Source of the DNA: a virus
Direction: 5' to 3' (one strand)
DNA length: 21,248 nucleotides
IMG/VR virus record: IMGVR_UViG_3300026077_000371
Location: 1 to 21,248 of that record
The notes below the pieces were generated by a model. It saw nothing but the letters and a program-made list of their open reading frames with translations. It was not told where the DNA came from and did no database searches. Shown in pieces: positions 5,282 through 19,024 of this stretch. Positions within the stretch are counted from its first letter, which is position 1. Every line of letters starts with the position of its first letter. A program made the position numbers and the translations under genes.

Positions 5282-5670
5282 TGACCTATCGCTCAGGTTT
5301 GGAAGAGCGTGTAGCAAAGATATTTGATATAAATTCTATCCCGTATAAATACGAGAGTAAGAAATATAAATACGTTATCGAAAGCAACTATACCCCCGAC
5401 TTCTTTGTTGGTGGTTTAGTTCTCGAAGTGAAAGGTTTCTTTAAACCTGAACAGAGAAGAAAGATGTTAGCGGTAAAGCGTCAGCATCCAGAGCTAGATA
5501 TACGCATGATTTTCCAACGCAATAACACCTTAAGTAAATCATCTAAAACTCACTATGGAGATTGGTGCGACAAGCATGGATTTCCTTGGTGCATATTCCC
5601 TCACATCCCAAAGGAGTGGTTCAATGAGCTACCAAAACCTAATAACAAAAAAGCAAGTGGTAAAGAGTGA
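5281..5670 (+). CDS. T7 gp3-like endonuclease I (Holliday junction resolvase)
   Basis: 129 aa, close in pattern to T7 endonuclease I, which resolves branched DNA and helps degrade host DNA. Matching segments are RSGLEER (T7 RSGLEDK), YTPDFF (T7 YTPDFL), LEVKGFF (T7 VETKGLW), QHPELDIRMIF (T7 QHPELDIRIVF) and YGDWCDKHG (T7 YGEFCEKHG). The catalytic acids and Lys correspond to E8, D40, E49 and K51. It overlaps SSB by one base and the next gene by 47 bases. The T7 lysozyme gene (3.5), which follows gp3 in T7, is absent; a 57-aa unknown takes its place. Confidence 0.95.
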   Translation: MTYRSGLEERVAKIFDINSIPYKYESKKYKYVIESNYTPDFFVGGLVLEVKGFFKPEQRRKMLAVKRQHPELDIRMIFQRNNTLSKSSKTHYGDWCDKHGFPWCIFPHIPKEWFNELPKPNNKKASGKE

Positions 5671-5797
5671 CTTCCTGTTTCTCTCACTTGATGCTTGGGT
5701 AGAACAATTTCAAGGGGAGATTCCCTTTCAAGAGATAGTTGAAGTGATGAGAGATTACGTCGAACTCGCTGACGACTTTTATGGATTCCCAAAATGA
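5624..5797 (+). CDS. small protein, unknown function (57 aa)
   Basis: Starts at ATG 5624, preceded by AAGGAG at 5611-5616 with ideal spacing, inside the 3' end of the endonuclease gene in another frame. It ends inside the start of the primase gene. The 57-residue product is acidic in its second half (EVMRDYVELADDFYGFPK) and has aromatic residues, but no known motif. It occupies the T7 gene 3.5 slot and is far too short to be an amidase/lysozyme: there is no zinc-ligand pattern. The strong ribosome binding site is the main reason to believe it is real. Confidence 0.65.
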   Translation: MSYQNLITKKQVVKSDFLFLSLDAWVEQFQGEIPFQEIVEVMRDYVELADDFYGFPK

Positions 5798-7373
5798 ATT
5801 TGTTCGCCATGAAGCATGTCCTTTCTGTACTAGCAGCGATGCCTTTGCTGTTTACTCAGATGGATCAGGCTATTGCTTCTCATGCGGCAACCATCGTCGC
5901 AGTGAAAACAACAATAGAAAAGAGCCAATGTCATCAACTCAGACCAACAGTACGAGAGTTTCGTATGACGGAGACTTCGCCCGCATCACCTCTCGAAATA
6001 TAACCGAAGATACTTGTAGGAAATTTAATGTCAGGATCGATACTGTACGGAATGTTATTAAGTTCCCGTACTATTCAGATACGGGGAGAATTGTGGCATA
6101 TAAGGAGAGAACGAAAGCGAAGGGTTTTTCGTGGAAGGGTAAAAATGAAGGTCATCGGCTTTTTGGTCAGCATCTATTCGGTAGTGGTAAAACTATTGTG
6201 GTTGTTGAAGGAGAGCTTGATGCACTTGCTACCTTCCAAGCAAGGCCGAACTGGGCGGTAGTGTCCATTGATTGTGGAGCAAAGGCAGCAAAGAAATCTC
6301 TGTTGTCTCAGCTCGACTATCTACTTGGCTTCGATGAAATCGTACTTATGTTCGATAACGATGAAGCTGGCACAAATGCCACCGCAGAATGTATCTCCTT
6401 ATTCCCACCTGAAAGAGTTTTTATAGCAGCTCTTGGAACATACAAAGATGCTTGTGAAGCATTGATAGCAAAGGATAGTGAGGCAATACGCCAAGCTATA
6501 TGGAACAAGAAAACATATTCACCTAAGTCCATCATTGATGGGCGTAATCTATTTGATCTAGTAAGTAAACCATTACACGGCAAAGATGCTGACTACCCAT
6601 ACAAAGCTGTAAACGAAATGACATCAGGACTCCGTTTTGGAGAACTCGTATGTTTAACAAGTGGTAGTGGCGTTGGGAAGAGTACCATTTGCGGTGAAAT
6701 ATCTCAGGCGTTAGTCGATCAAAATTTTAAGGTCGGGTACATTGCTTTAGAAGAAAGCGTACAAAGAACAGCACTACGATTAATGAGTGTTGTTGCTAAT
6801 AAACCATTGCATCTAAACAATGACATACCAAAAGAAGAATTAAAGGAAGCCTTTGATAAATCTATTGGTACTGGACAAGTGTTGTTAAGAGATGGATTTG
6901 GCAGCGTTGATCCTAAGTCAATACTGAATGACATGCGTTACTTGGTAAACCAAGGAGTGCAATGGATAATACTAGATCACTTGAGCATATTGTTGTCAGC
7001 AAATGAAGCCGACAATGAAAGACAATTGATAGATAGAACGATGACCCAGCTTCGATGCTTTGTTGAGGAGACAAACGTAGGAATGATACTTGTATCTCAC
7101 TTACGAAGAAGTCAATCAGATAAAGGACATGAGGACGGCAATACCATCTCTCTTAGCCAACTGAGAGGGAGTGGATCTATAGGTCAGTTGAGCGATATTT
7201 GTTTAGGTGTAATCCGCTCAGTCAGTAGTGGTGACAATACATCTAAGGTTGTTTGCCTCAAGAATAGATTTAATGGTCAGACAGGTGAATGTGGAAATCT
7301 TATTTTCCAGAAAGAAACTGGAAGATTAATAGAACATCCAACCGCATTAAATACAGACTATGAATCGTTTTAA
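5781..7373 (+). CDS. gp4-like DNA primase/helicase
   Basis: 530-aa bifunctional replication protein. The N-terminal zinc-binding domain has two Cys pairs, CPFC (C13, C16) and CFSC (C32, C35). The TOPRIM primase domain shows VVEGELDAL (E143) and MFDNDEAG (D192, D194). The C-terminal hexameric RecA-type helicase has a Walker A motif GSGVGKST (295-302), a Walker B-like ILDH (D399), LVSHLRR and a QLRGSGSIGQLSD segment. The C-terminus is acidic and ends in Phe (DYESF), like the T7 gp4 tail that binds the polymerase. It unwinds the fork and makes primers for the lagging strand. It overlaps genes on both sides by 14-17 bases. Confidence 0.97.
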   Translation: MDSQNEFVRHEACPFCTSSDAFAVYSDGSGYCFSCGNHRRSENNNRKEPMSSTQTNSTRVSYDGDFARITSRNITEDTCRKFNVRIDTVRNVIKFPYYSDTGRIVAYKERTKAKGFSWKGKNEGHRLFGQHLFGSGKTIVVVEGELDALATFQARPNWAVVSIDCGAKAAKKSLLSQLDYLLGFDEIVLMFDNDEAGTNATAECISLFPPERVFIAALGTYKDACEALIAKDSEAIRQAIWNKKTYSPKSIIDGRNLFDLVSKPLHGKDADYPYKAVNEMTSGLRFGELVCLTSGSGVGKSTICGEISQALVDQNFKVGYIALEESVQRTALRLMSVVANKPLHLNNDIPKEELKEAFDKSIGTGQVLLRDGFGSVDPKSILNDMRYLVNQGVQWIILDHLSILLSANEADNERQLIDRTMTQLRCFVEETNVGMILVSHLRRSQSDKGHEDGNTISLSQLRGSGSIGQLSDICLGVIRSVSSGDNTSKVVCLKNRFNGQTGECGNLIFQKETGRLIEHPTALNTDYESF

Positions 7374-15477: not shown

Positions 15478-16287
15478 ATGCCAAGTAAGATGATTGATCC
15501 TACTGAACAGAATCAGTCGGAGAAAGAAGCAGAAGCTCAAGCTTATGCACAGGGACAAGCTAACGAGGAAGCATTACAAGCTGACAAAGAAGCAACCCTA
15601 GCAGCTCTTGAAAAAGAAAATGAAGCACAAGCTCTTATTGATGGTAAGTTTAAAAATCAAGAAGACTTACTATCTGCTTATAAAGAACTTGAAAAGAAAC
15701 TCCATAAGCCAGAAGAAGAAAAAGAAACTGAAGAGCAACCTACTGAAGATAAACAGGAAGAAGAAACACCTGTAATGGAACAGAGTCTTCAGAAGGCTGC
15801 TGATGTGTTCAGAGACAAAGGTGAATTAACTCCAGAAGTCATCGAAGATTTATCGAAGATGGATAGTAAGGATTTAGTTAAAGCTTACATGGATTTTTAT
15901 TCAAAAAATCAAAACCAAGCTTTAGCACAAAGCGCAGTATCTCAAATACATGAAATTGCTGGAGGAGAACAAGGTTATAACGATCTCATGCAATGGGCAT
16001 CTACTAATCTTCCAGAACAAGATGTTATGGAATTTAATAAAGTTGCTGAATCTAATAATTCTGTAGCTATTAAGTTTGCAGTAGAAGCTTTAAATAATAG
16101 ATATAAAAATTCTGAAGGATATGAGGGTCAATTATTAACTGGCAAATCACCGACCAACGACGGGCAAAAACCATACCGTAGCCATGCAGAACTTGTGCGG
16201 GATATTGGTAATCCTTTATATCAATCTGACCCAGCGTTCAGACAAGATGTGGAGGCGAGACTAGCTCGTTCACCCGAACTTTTATAA
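15478..16287 (+). CDS. gp9-like capsid scaffolding protein
   Basis: 269 aa, very acidic and helical, with Glu/Gln/Lys-rich repeats (AQAYAQGQANEEALQADKEA, EEEKETEEQPTEDKQEEE), no Cys and a coiled-coil look in the first 110 residues. It sits between portal and capsid genes as T7 gp9 does (307 aa). Scaffold guides procapsid assembly around the portal and then leaves. The C-terminal part (YRSHAELVRDIGNPLYQSDPAFRQDVEARLARS) is the type of conserved end that contacts the capsid protein. Starts three bases after the nested 59-aa gene. Confidence 0.92.
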   Translation: MPSKMIDPTEQNQSEKEAEAQAYAQGQANEEALQADKEATLAALEKENEAQALIDGKFKNQEDLLSAYKELEKKLHKPEEEKETEEQPTEDKQEEETPVMEQSLQKAADVFRDKGELTPEVIEDLSKMDSKDLVKAYMDFYSKNQNQALAQSAVSQIHEIAGGEQGYNDLMQWASTNLPEQDVMEFNKVAESNNSVAIKFAVEALNNRYKNSEGYEGQLLTGKSPTNDGQKPYRSHAELVRDIGNPLYQSDPAFRQDVEARLARSPELL

Positions 16288-16296
16288 CAACGAATA

Positions 16297-16626
16297 GTGA
16301 CAGCTACAACACATACTTTTCAAGACGGAAAATATTCAGTCCGTCAGGTAGAGGTTGCGAGACAACCTGTTACCGCAAGGCAGTTAGCCGCTGGAGCGGC
16401 AAGTGCAAATACAGCGTTAACAGCTACCGTGCGCATAATTAGTGTACGGGCTGTAGGTGCTGACATTAGATATTCCATAGGAACATCGGCTCAGACAGCA
16501 ACAACATCTAGCCACTTTATTGGTAATGGTGAAAGATTAACTTTGGTTGTTCCAAGTGGAGCAAACATTGGCGTTATTAGAAACGCATCAACAAACGGTA
16601 CACTCGAATTAACGGAGCTAGATTAA
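16297..16626 (+). CDS. small beta-rich protein, putative virion component (109 aa)
   Basis: Starts at GTG 16297. The 109-residue sequence is Ala/Thr/Ser-rich and alternates like a beta-sandwich (TATVRIISVRAVGADIRYSIG, SSHFIGNGERLTLVVPSGANIGVIRN, GTLELTEL). No Cys, membrane segment or signal. Similar small proteins are common among structural genes of marine phages, but the role is not known; a head decoration or accessory structural protein is my guess. Its stop overlaps the hli ATG by one base. Confidence 0.75.
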   Translation: MTATTHTFQDGKYSVRQVEVARQPVTARQLAAGAASANTALTATVRIISVRAVGADIRYSIGTSAQTATTSSHFIGNGERLTLVVPSGANIGVIRNASTNGTLELTELD

Positions 16627-16736
16627 TGGATTGGGAAAACGTAGAACTAACAAACGGAAGGATGGCAATGATTGGTATAATGGCAGCTCTTGGAGCTTAC
16701 ATATTTACTGGTCAAATAATTCCTACTATTTGGTGA
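16626..16736 (+). CDS. hli: high-light-inducible protein (Hlip), minimal 36 aa
   Basis: 36 aa with the chlorophyll-binding signature of the Hlip family: ELTNGRMAMIGIMAALGAYIF, where Glu, Asn and Arg are the pigment/helix-pair residues. One transmembrane helix spans about residues 14-31; only a short stroma-side N-terminus and a 5-residue tail remain. Host Hlips bind chlorophyll and carotenoid in the thylakoid and protect photosystem II and its assembly under light stress; cyanophages carry them to keep the infected cell energised. A GGAG at 16614-16617 serves as ribosome binding site. The gene identifies the host as a cyanobacterium. Confidence 0.93.
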   Translation: MDWENVELTNGRMAMIGIMAALGAYIFTGQIIPTIW

Positions 16737-16744
16737 ACGAATGA

Positions 16745-17272
16745 ATGTTCAACCCACCTCATTGGCATCATAAGAATATTAAATTTCCAAAAAAAGAAAT
16801 TGATATTGTTTCTTCCAAATTAAAACAAATACCAATACCCTTTAAAAATAATTGTTTCACAACTTTCTATCAAGATACTCTTCGTCCAGAATCCATATGG
16901 TATGAAAATTACAGTGAGATTCTGGAGGATATTCTATCAAGTATAGGAATCTTCCAAAATGGAAAATATGATTATTATTATTGGGCGCAGCTATATGTAG
17001 ATGGTAGTACACATGGAGTTCATAACCATGTTCCTAACTCTGATATTAGTTTTGTACATTTCCTACAAGTTCCTGACGAACCTTTGTTTAGATTTACAAA
17101 TACTATAGGTGACTACTATTTACCAAAACAAGAAGAAGGTGACATTATATGTTTCCCATCATGGGCATGGCACGAAGTTATAACTAATAAATCTAATACA
17201 GAAAGGTTAGTCGTATCTGGAAATATAAATATCACCGATATGTCACCAATACCATTGGAGAATAGCAATTGA
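16745..17272 (+). CDS. 2OG-Fe(II) dioxygenase-like protein A
   Basis: 175 aa. The C-terminal two thirds fit the 2OG-Fe(II) oxygenase pattern: AQLYVDGSTHGVHNHVPNSD (H93/H95 region), EGDIICFPSWAWHEV (distal His H143), and an Arg 11 residues later (R154) in TERLVVSGNINI that would hold 2-oxoglutarate. The pattern is closest to the phage 2OG-FeII_Oxy_5 type. Cyanophages often carry such genes and their substrates are unknown. The acid of the HxD pair is not obvious (HNH instead), so activity is uncertain. The region is more AT-rich than the capsid gene. The TGA overlaps the next start. Confidence 0.8.
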   Translation: MFNPPHWHHKNIKFPKKEIDIVSSKLKQIPIPFKNNCFTTFYQDTLRPESIWYENYSEILEDILSSIGIFQNGKYDYYYWAQLYVDGSTHGVHNHVPNSDISFVHFLQVPDEPLFRFTNTIGDYYLPKQEEGDIICFPSWAWHEVITNKSNTERLVVSGNINITDMSPIPLENSN

Positions 17273-17751
17273 AAGTAATAGACAACTTCTTACCTGATGA
17301 TGTTTTCGAGAATATTCAAAACAAACTCATGGATACAATGTGGATATTTCAGAAAACTGTAGCTATAAAAAGAGATAAAGAAGAATTTGAAAATAGTTTT
17401 TACACACATGTTGCTTATAAGAATGATGTACCAGTATCAGAAATGTTCGAGCATCTTCAATATTTCCATACTGATAAAAGACTTGGTTTAAAATCAATGC
17501 TTAGATTAGTTATAAACGCCTACCCTTACACACCTAAATTGTATGAACATTCAAATCATTATGATTTTTTCTACGAACATAAGGGTGCGATATTGTATCT
17601 AAACACCTGTGATGGTTATACTTTTGCTGAAGGACAGAGAGTTCAATCAATAGCAAATCGTGTACTTTTACATGACCCTTCAAACCTGCATCACAGTACT
17701 ACAACTACTAATGCACAAAGAAGAGTTATATGTAATTTAAATTATTTTTAA
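17269..17751 (+). CDS. 2OG-Fe(II) dioxygenase-like protein B
   Basis: 160 aa starting at TTG 17269, overlapping the previous stop (TTGA). It begins KVIDNFLPDDVFENIQ, a common opening of phage prolyl-hydroxylase-like proteins. The motif HYDF (H97, D99) gives the HxD iron pair, followed by GAILYLNTCDGYTFAEGQRVQS, then the distal His (H141 or H142) and Arg (R151/R152) in NAQRRVICNLNYF. So the full HxD...H...R set is present, and this protein looks catalytically intact, unlike its neighbour. Substrate unknown. Together with gene A it occupies the interval where psbA lies in P-SSP7. Confidence 0.85.
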   Translation: MKVIDNFLPDDVFENIQNKLMDTMWIFQKTVAIKRDKEEFENSFYTHVAYKNDVPVSEMFEHLQYFHTDKRLGLKSMLRLVINAYPYTPKLYEHSNHYDFFYEHKGAILYLNTCDGYTFAEGQRVQSIANRVLLHDPSNLHHSTTTTNAQRRVICNLNYF

Positions 17752-17760
17752 TGCTACGTC

Positions 17761-17810
17761 CGTTCATCCCTTCGGGGACGCATGAAAACTAAGCATGGAA
17801 CGGGGCTTAG
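17761..17810 (+). promoter_or_regulatory. glutamine riboswitch, downstream-peptide type
   Basis: The RNA matches the glutamine-binding 'downstream-peptide' motif of marine cyanobacteria. P1 pairs CGTTC (17761-17765) with GAACG (17798-17802). A hairpin TCCC-TTCG-GGGA (17767-17778) sits inside it. A pseudoknot joins CTAAGC (17789-17794) to GCTTAG (17805-17810). The invariant GTTCATCC, GGACG and GGAACGGG segments are present. In cyanobacteria these riboswitches sense glutamine, a nitrogen-status signal, and control glutamine synthetase inhibitors or small peptides. Here the ribosome binding site GGAG (17816-17819) of an 18-aa peptide lies six bases after the pseudoknot, so control of translation is likely. 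Confidence 0.88.
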
Positions 17811-17825
17811 TATATGGAGATGACA

Positions 17826-17882
17826 ATGAAAAAAGTTACTTTCGTATATCGTGGCGTTGCTTACACAAGAGTAATCGGTTAG
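17826..17882 (+). CDS. 18-aa downstream peptide, DUF4278/PirA-like N-terminus
   Basis: Short open frame just after the riboswitch. ATG 17826 is six bases from GGAG (17816-17819); an ATG at 17820 directly abuts that site and is less likely. The product MKKVTFVYRGVAYTRVIG matches the start of DUF4278 proteins (YRGxxY), a cyanobacterial family that includes PirA, a PII-interacting regulator of arginine synthesis controlled by nitrogen supply. Only the first strand-turn-strand of that family remains. The role of the phage peptide is unknown; it may tune nitrogen assimilation of the host. Too short for gene finders. Confidence 0.7.
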   Translation: MKKVTFVYRGVAYTRVIG

Positions 17883-17914
17883 GCGATCTTGGGGGGTTCG
17901 ATTCCTCCCTACTC
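17869..17914 (+). ncRNA. tRNA-like fold without anticodon arm
   Basis: GAGTA (17869-17873) pairs with TACTC (17910-17914) as an acceptor-like stem. Inside are a D-arm-like hairpin ATCG-GTTAGG-CGAT (17874-17887), three bases, and a T-arm GGGGGG-TTCGATT-CCTCCC (17891-17909) with the exact 7-base T-loop sequence. The T-stem runs straight into the acceptor strand, as in tRNA. There is no room for an anticodon arm and no CCA follows, so it is not a normal tRNA. It overlaps the last codons of the 18-aa peptide. It could be a transfer RNA remnant, an attachment site, an RNA-processing or stability signal, or part of a tmRNA-like domain. Confidence 0.45.
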
Positions 17915-18037: not shown

Positions 18038-19024
18038 ATGACTAACATGGCAAACATTACCAGACCCAACTCGGTCAATGGTAATCAGAGCAATACATTT
18101 GCAAACAAATATGCGACAGCGTTAACCGTCTTTTCTGGCGAAGTATTTAACGCATTTAACGCAGCTTCAATCGCTAAAGGTCTAGTTAGAAGCTACACCT
18201 TGAGAGGAGCAAAGAGTAAGCAGTTCTTACTACAAGGAACACTCGGAGCGGGTTTCCATACCGCTGGGCAGCCTATACTAGGAGATACAGCATTAAAGGC
18301 AAACGAAGTAACCATTAATGCAGATGACCTATTAATAAGCTCTCAGTTTGTATATAACCTCGATGAGATTCTTTCTCAGTACGGTCAAAGATCTGAGATC
18401 AGTAAGCAGATCGGTGAGGCATTAGCAAAATTCTACGATCAGAGAATCTTCAGAGTTCTTGATATAGCATCTAGAGCTAGTGCAGCCGTAACAGGTGAGC
18501 AAGGTGGATTTGAAGTTTCTATCGGATCTGGTAAGCAGTTTGATGCACAAGCTATCGTTGACGGTATCTTCGAGGCAAGAGCTGTACTAGAAGAGCGCAA
18601 CGCTCCTACTGATGGAATCTCTTGTGTACTTTCTCCACGTCAGTACCTATCACTTATTTCTTCTGTTGATACAAATATTCTTAACAGAGAGTTAGGTGGA
18701 ACACAGGGTTCTGTAAACAGTGGCGAAGGACTTTACTCTATCGCTGGAGTTAAGTTATACAAGTCAAATAACCTTCCTTTCATGGCAGCTTATAACTCAG
18801 CAGTAACTGGGGAAAATAACGACTACACAGATGCAAATGACAAATGTGCAGGATTAATTTTCCATAGAGAAGCCGCTGGCGTTGTTGAGACTGTTTCTCC
18901 AACTGTGGAAACAACATCTGAATCTTTCAGAGTTCAGTACCAAGGTGACTTAATTGTAGGAAAACTAAGTATGGGTGTAGGCGCATTGCGTACATCAGTT
19001 GCTGGTTCATTACAAGCAAAATAA
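18038..19024 (+). CDS. gp10-like major capsid protein
   Basis: 328 aa (T7 gp10A is 344), the shell subunit with the HK97 fold. Typical segments are an N-terminal arm (QSNTFANKYATALTVFSGEVF), VRSYTLRGAKSKQFLLQG with HTAGQPILGD, the helix-rich ISSQFVYNLDEILSQYGQRSEISKQIGEALAKFYDQRIFRVL, and ISCVLSPRQYLSLIS. AGGAG (18023-18027) about ten bases upstream of ATG 18038 is a strong ribosome binding site, fitting a highly expressed gene. A second ATG at 18047 would trim three residues. It has its own intergenic leader with a promoter-like site and is followed by a hairpin. No gp10B-type frameshift extension is visible. Confidence 0.97.
   Translation: MTNMANITRPNSVNGNQSNTFANKYATALTVFSGEVFNAFNAASIAKGLVRSYTLRGAKSKQFLLQGTLGAGFHTAGQPILGDTALKANEVTINADDLLISSQFVYNLDEILSQYGQRSEISKQIGEALAKFYDQRIFRVLDIASRASAAVTGEQGGFEVSIGSGKQFDAQAIVDGIFEARAVLEERNAPTDGISCVLSPRQYLSLISSVDTNILNRELGGTQGSVNSGEGLYSIAGVKLYKSNNLPFMAAYNSAVTGENNDYTDANDKCAGLIFHREAAGVVETVSPTVETTSESFRVQYQGDLIVGKLSMGVGALRTSVAGSLQAK

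Follow-up and report, generated by a model that had tools for sequence, protein, structure and literature searches.

Gene content of the window and limits of the slot

The window, by which is meant the whole stretch of DNA analysed here, is a linear fragment of 21,248 bp that makes up its entire record and covers the left-hand and central portions of the genome of a T7-like cyanophage. Its genes run in the order RNA polymerase, regulator, integrase, primase/helicase, DNA polymerase, exonuclease, ribonucleotide reductase, gp8 and gp9, followed by a variable slot, gp10, gp11 and the start of one more gene. Within the slot, two genes resembling 2-oxoglutarate (2OG)-Fe(II) oxygenases, here called ORF-A and ORF-B, occupy a cassette of ~1.0 kb that lies exactly between the stop of hli and a Glutamine-II riboswitch. 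The features of the slot and its borders are as follows, with the contigs used for comparison designated by L numbers.

15478..16287, + strand: gp9-like scaffold or capsid assembly protein, the left border of the slot (PHROG_1052 head assembly, E 2e-49; PF05396, E 5e-6)
16297..16626, + strand: orf109, a small lineage-conserved protein (86-94% amino acid identity and the same position in L006-L010)
16626..16736, + strand: hli, a high-light-inducible protein of 36 aa (PHROG_178, E 3e-15; Pfam PF00504, E 2e-4)
16737..17750, + strand: cargo cassette, from the hli stop to the riboswitch (not in the nearest relatives by blastn; GC content)
16745..17272, + strand: ORF-A, 175 aa, PF13759/PHROG_81 2OG-Fe(II)-oxygenase-like (profiles, alignment, AlphaFold, Foldseek)
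17269..17751, + strand: ORF-B, 160 aa, PHROG_274, predicted prolyl-hydroxylase-type fold (profile, alignment, AlphaFold, Foldseek)
17758..17811, + strand: Glutamine-II (Downstream-peptide) riboswitch aptamer, the right border of the cassette (Rfam RF01704)
17826..17882, + strand: short YRG peptide ORF, MKKVTFVYRGVAYTRVIG* (sequence; YRG peptides at the equivalent spot in relatives)
17869..17914, + strand: tRNA-like RNA element (minimum free energy fold; covariation across 18 sequences)
18038..19024, + strand: gp10 major capsid protein, the right border of the slot (PF21703, E 1e-51)

The retention of a 36-aa hli between the scaffold and capsid genes, noted in the initial annotation, is confirmed by the PHROG_178 and PF00504 matches, and the coordinates and motif readings given there for the two oxygenase-like genes are correct, HNH belonging to the first gene and HYD to the second. 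To this can be added orf109, which intervenes between scaffold and hli. The 36-aa length of hli is common to the nearest relatives, contigs L005-L010, which have capsids 93-97% identical to that of the window and carry, where in view, orf109, the 36-aa hli and a 48-aa basic protein. The last left-hand gene in common with these relatives is hli, the DNA being collinear with L006-L010 until 16734. In blastn comparisons with L005-L010, the match ends at 16734/16736 and resumes at 17749 (L005), 17756 (L006, L009) or 17867 (L007, L010). The GC content of ORF-A and ORF-B is 31-32%, versus 35-45% in the other genes measured. A relative of orf109 with 63% identity occurs in phage S-B28 among genes of the tail-fibre region (L003, 4875-5180), which suggests that a structural protein may have moved.

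Lineage and slot contents across cyanopodoviruses

The capsid protein is 77% identical to that of SS120-1, 65% to Syn5, 62% to P60 and 40% to those of MPP-B (the P-SSP7 clade); gp8 is 64% identical to its SS120-1 counterpart, and the ribonucleotide reductase is a class Ia beta subunit, as in SS120-1. On this core-gene affinity to SS120-1, Syn5 and P60, the phage is assigned from its sequence to the MPP-A cyanopodoviruses. In Huang et al. 2015, SS120-1 appears as P-SSP9 (accession HQ316584), an MPP-A phage that has hli and no psbA, and psbA is missing from all MPP-A genomes in that study (PMC4646655); given the MPP-A affinity, psbA is not expected here. None was found in the 21,248-bp fragment, an incomplete genome that could hold one elsewhere, nor anywhere in those contigs of its nearest relatives that reach 29-45 kb, and the slots of L005-L010 contain neither psbA nor either oxygenase family. 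P-SSP7 does have the order gp9-hli-psbA-gp10, in agreement with the initial annotation. The slot of P-SSP7-type (MPP-B) phages resembles the present one in its position between gp9 and gp10, in its kind of hli and in the Glutamine-II riboswitch before gp10, and has variable small genes beside psbA; in contrast, the slot in the window has no psbA, contains two oxygenases where the others have small hypothetical genes, and lies in the MPP-A capsid lineage.

Slot contents were surveyed at 75 usable capsid-seeded loci with enough upstream sequence, these being the loci most similar to two query capsids and not a random set. psbA is present at 43, an oxygenase at 12, both at eight and neither at 28. 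Among the 28 usable loci of type A, psbA occurs at five and an oxygenase at three (plus the window), with both at none, a sample too small to argue exclusion; the 47 usable loci of type B include 38 with psbA and nine with an oxygenase, eight of which have both while the ninth is truncated. Some further oxygenase slots were found via the oxygenases themselves, outside the capsid seeding. Overall, the slot may hold nothing, hli, psbA, outer-membrane-protein-like genes or one of several oxygenase families, and its contents differ between relatives, which agrees with its initial description as a possible cargo hotspot; both genes of the window are clearly variable, neither being universal at the site.

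Relatives of the two genes stand in several arrangements. In the P-SSP7-type contigs L052 and L163, the order is psbA, small genes, ORF-B, riboswitch and gp10, the ORF-B relative being 56-57% identical to that of the window, with a more distant one in L162. Other P-SSP7-type contigs have the order psbA-p38-ORF-A, namely L067/L068 (56% identity) and L165 (50%), and ORF-A relatives lie before hli in L105/L197 and L079. Other PF13759 proteins occur in the slots of L165, L171, L180, L184 and L188, and L165 and L079 have psbA plus two oxygenases each. The close relative L010 carries yet another beta-helix oxygenase-type gene in the same slot, directly before the capsid leader (JmjC_2-like, PF08007, 141 aa, 5415-5840); this gene differs from ORF-A and ORF-B in its family, that of ribosomal oxygenases such as YcfD, and in that L010 has no riboswitch match. 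The 3' end of the L010 gene runs straight into the tRNA-like element, with no riboswitch between.

Additional cargo was observed in the course of the survey. Outer-membrane-protein-like beta-barrel genes (PF24653) are frequent in the slot (L034 5212-5565, L028 4027-4377 and others), a C39/papain-like peptidase-type gene (PHROG endolysin) occupies that of L168 (3070-3732), and PKD-domain proteins are found in those of L179 (1445-2437) and L191 (37-861). Within the capsid gene itself, the match is split by a gap of ~210-225 bp in L028, L029, L042, L043 and L047, which suggests an inserted stretch.

The two oxygenase-like genes

ORF-A falls within Pfam family PF13759 (2OG-FeII_Oxy_5), scoring 42.2 bits against a cut-off of 27 (E 1.1e-10), and within PHROG_81 (E 6e-28), and gave weak matches in PDB sequence searches. 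Its candidate active-site residues are H93-N-H95...H143...R154. Members of the same family in cyanomyoviruses, e.g. SSSM7_226 of S-SSM7, have HxH...H...R and 46% identity to ORF-A; these homologues reside in myovirus genomes, whereas ORF-A sits in a podovirus structural-gene slot. ORF-B matches PHROG_274, named 'DNA endonuclease V' (E 1.4e-33), and no Pfam family. It carries H97-Y-D99...H141...R152, with H97, D99, H141 and R152 invariant in a 52-sequence alignment, and thus has the motif of the Fe(II)/2OG superfamily, an HxD...H metal triad with an arginine ~11 residues further on for 2OG.

AlphaFold models both proteins as double-stranded beta-helices, with pLDDT 92.2 for ORF-A and 93.2 for ORF-B. 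In Foldseek searches, ORF-A best matches 3bvc (E 6e-8) and 2rg4 (E 7e-8), followed by the prolyl hydroxylase (P4H) of P. putida, and the best matches of ORF-B are PHD/P4H prolyl hydroxylases (E 9e-8, probability 1.00, query TM-scores 0.53-0.69). The prolyl hydroxylases PHD2 and bacterial P4H (that of P. putida being bound to EF-Tu in 4iw3) have the fold and the order of metal and 2OG residues seen here, but are <20% identical to ORF-A and ORF-B, and ORF-A has HxH instead. Since dozens of homologues with invariant motifs accompany confident folds for both ORFs, the resemblance is not due to chance; the original reading of both genes as 2OG-Fe(II)-oxygenase-like holds at the level of invariant motifs and predicted structure.

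2OG oxygenases are common genes of cyanomyoviruses (PMC3037559, PMC9602691), and those of cyanophages are believed to move chiefly among phages, within their own gene pool (PMC9602691). A scan of cellular genomes for ORF-B agrees with such circulation, in that the only relatives were four weak ones from assemblies of marine bacteria, with cyanobacteria giving none; hence, no host origin is visible. The open-access literature, in the part of it that was covered, contained nothing specific on oxygenases in cyanopodoviruses. Genes of PHROG_274 labelled denV or DNA endonuclease V are also seen in L062 (1201-1698) and L063 (1195-1728), with HxD...H...R present.

Two other identities for these proteins have to be weighed. 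The PHROG and GenBank names would make ORF-B the DNA repair enzyme endonuclease V, and PHROG_274 and 'denV' labels do stand in many cyanophages, including Syn19 and P-SSM2, the labelled members of which (T4-GC 100) are 39-40% identical to ORF-B. However, the Syn19 and P-SSM2 'denV' proteins align with the same invariant HxD...H...R. T4 endonuclease V is all-helical and structures of it exist in the PDB, yet searching the PDB with the ORF-B profile gave no chain with an E of 1 or below, there is no Pfam match, and the model is a beta-helix resembling prolyl hydroxylases. There is next to no chance that ORF-B is endonuclease V; its predicted fold and active-site motif mark the label as wrong, the same correction extends to the Syn19 and P-SSM2 'denV' proteins, and, going by the models, many records seem to carry a mistaken name. 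The initial annotation further suggested that the two may act as an active and a degenerate partner; in that case ORF-A, with its HNH site, would have no catalytic activity and would serve as a regulatory subunit for ORF-B, with its HxD site. The adjacency and overlap of the genes and the lack of the canonical acidic ligand in ORF-A speak for this, but HxH...H...R is invariant across all 43 aligned ORF-A homologues, divergent PF13759 proteins in other slots have HYH, HNH, HCH, HHH or HDH with histidine always in the third position, and the solved PF13759 relatives 2rg4/3bvc carry HIH, so HNH is no degenerate site. Moreover, ORF-A is found without ORF-B in L067/L068 and L105, and ORF-B without ORF-A in L052 and L163; their separate occurrence indicates no obligate pair and, together with the histidines, leaves the dead-subunit idea very unlikely. 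With its three histidines, the site of ORF-A is out of the ordinary, and it might not bind 2OG in the way that an HxD site does.

RNA elements and exchange at the right border

The Glutamine-II riboswitch scores 50.6 bits against the RF01704 cut-off of 33 (E 8e-10), and also precedes gp10 in P-SSP7, SS120-1 and others. Riboswitch plus short YRG peptide matches the published Downstream-peptide arrangement (PMC2864571), and the combination before the capsid gene (17758-17882) is common to MPP-A and MPP-B cyanopodoviruses. Overlapping the end of the YRG peptide ORF, upstream of the capsid gene, is a tRNA-like element with a 5-bp acceptor-like stem, a D-arm-like hairpin and a T-arm-like hairpin with a TTCGATT loop, without an anticodon arm (minimum free energy -16.6 kcal/mol). 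Across 18 sequences, 95% of pair cells are standard, four pairs show two-sided (compensatory) changes, and the covariation score exceeds that of every one of 500 shuffles and of every slid control. In L007 and L010 the riboswitch part cannot be aligned, but the element is still there. ARAGORN found no full tRNA in the 21,248-bp window, and no Rfam family matches the element; in NATL1A-7, a tRNA-Gly is annotated in the same interval before the capsid gene. One possible role of the tRNA-like element is as a site for processing by RNase P.

Sharing between the capsid lineages goes further for the riboswitch element than for the capsids, in that phages of capsid types A and B are interspersed in the element tree, which forces at least four switches. 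The L006 element groups with type-B phages, its placement with the kin of the window being rejected (p-AU 2e-5). In the window, the element has 97% identity to one of type B, against 85% to that of the nearest kin, L005, with which the sequence directly downstream of the element agrees at 97-100%. An MPP-B origin was considered for the window's element; the identities are suggestive, but the tree test does not reject its grouping with L005/L008/L009 (p-AU 0.16), which is too little to settle on a donor clade or on a direction of exchange. As far as the sequences go, element identities and tree fit exchange at conserved borders.

Interpretation and significance

The locus is very probably an accessory cargo cassette of ~1 kb, carrying two oxygenase families in the variable hli-riboswitch slot of an MPP-A-like phage, with the oxygenases being additional to psbA, rather than its substitute, and forming no active/degenerate pair. 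Such a cassette may have been swapped in by recombination, with hli on one side and the riboswitch, peptide and tRNA-like element on the other serving as shared conserved borders. The TTG start of ORF-B overlaps the TGA stop of ORF-A as ATTGA, which makes coupled translation of the two genes, within the late structural transcript, likely. By analogy with prolyl hydroxylases, whose fold suggests hydroxylation of a protein, ORF-A and ORF-B might be Fe(II)/2OG-dependent enzymes that hydroxylate a protein of the host (or of the virion), although this step is tentative and somewhat less probable than its opposite. A bacterial P4H structure with EF-Tu (4iw3) is among the Foldseek matches, and ribosomal protein L16 is a hydroxylation substrate of YcfD (PMC4295552); the translation machinery would therefore be a sensible first place to look.

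Two alternatives concern what the cassette is for. In one, the oxygenases take the role or place of psbA in phages that lost it, as the initial annotation implied in calling psbA expected and replaced. Although this draws on synteny with P-SSP7, where psbA fills the slot, and on the lack of any sampled type-A contig with both genes, it conflicts with the absence of psbA from MPP-A isolates altogether (PMC4646655), with nearest relatives that carry neither psbA nor these oxygenases, and with P-SSP7-type phages that hold the same oxygenase families beside psbA, which is in view in eight of nine oxygenase-bearing type-B slots (the ninth being the truncated one); such replacement is extremely improbable. 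In the other, the enzymes matter by consuming 2OG and thereby shifting NtcA signalling and nitrogen status. An effect of cyanomyovirus oxygenases on 2OG signalling was put forward by Sullivan et al. (PMC3037559), a Glutamine-II riboswitch adjoins the slot, and glnA/Downstream-peptide RNAs are tied to nitrogen state (PMC2864571). Yet the riboswitch lies downstream of the oxygenases and is present with or without them, and a pure sink would need no variety of enzyme families, which makes the 2OG-sink idea unlikely, if much less so than psbA replacement. The preferred reading of accessory cargo can be carried further, into a picture that is likewise improbable as a whole: a dedicated exchange site between hli/psbA and the riboswitch plus tRNA-like element, into which PF13759, PHROG_274 and JmjC_2 proteins would be repeatedly loaded as interchangeable host-protein hydroxylases, e.g. 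acting on the translation machinery, with the RNA element as both recombination border and processing signal for capsid mRNA.

The slot itself is already known as variable in marine cyanopodoviruses, and the finding here is the accessory oxygenase cargo within it. T7-like cyanophages repeatedly carry 2OG-type oxygenases, described so far mainly from T4-like cyanophages, as cargo in the psbA slot and next to psbA. Finally, the 'DNA endonuclease V' family of many cyanophage genomes is, according to the structural models, prolyl-hydroxylase-like, and its substrate becomes a testable question.
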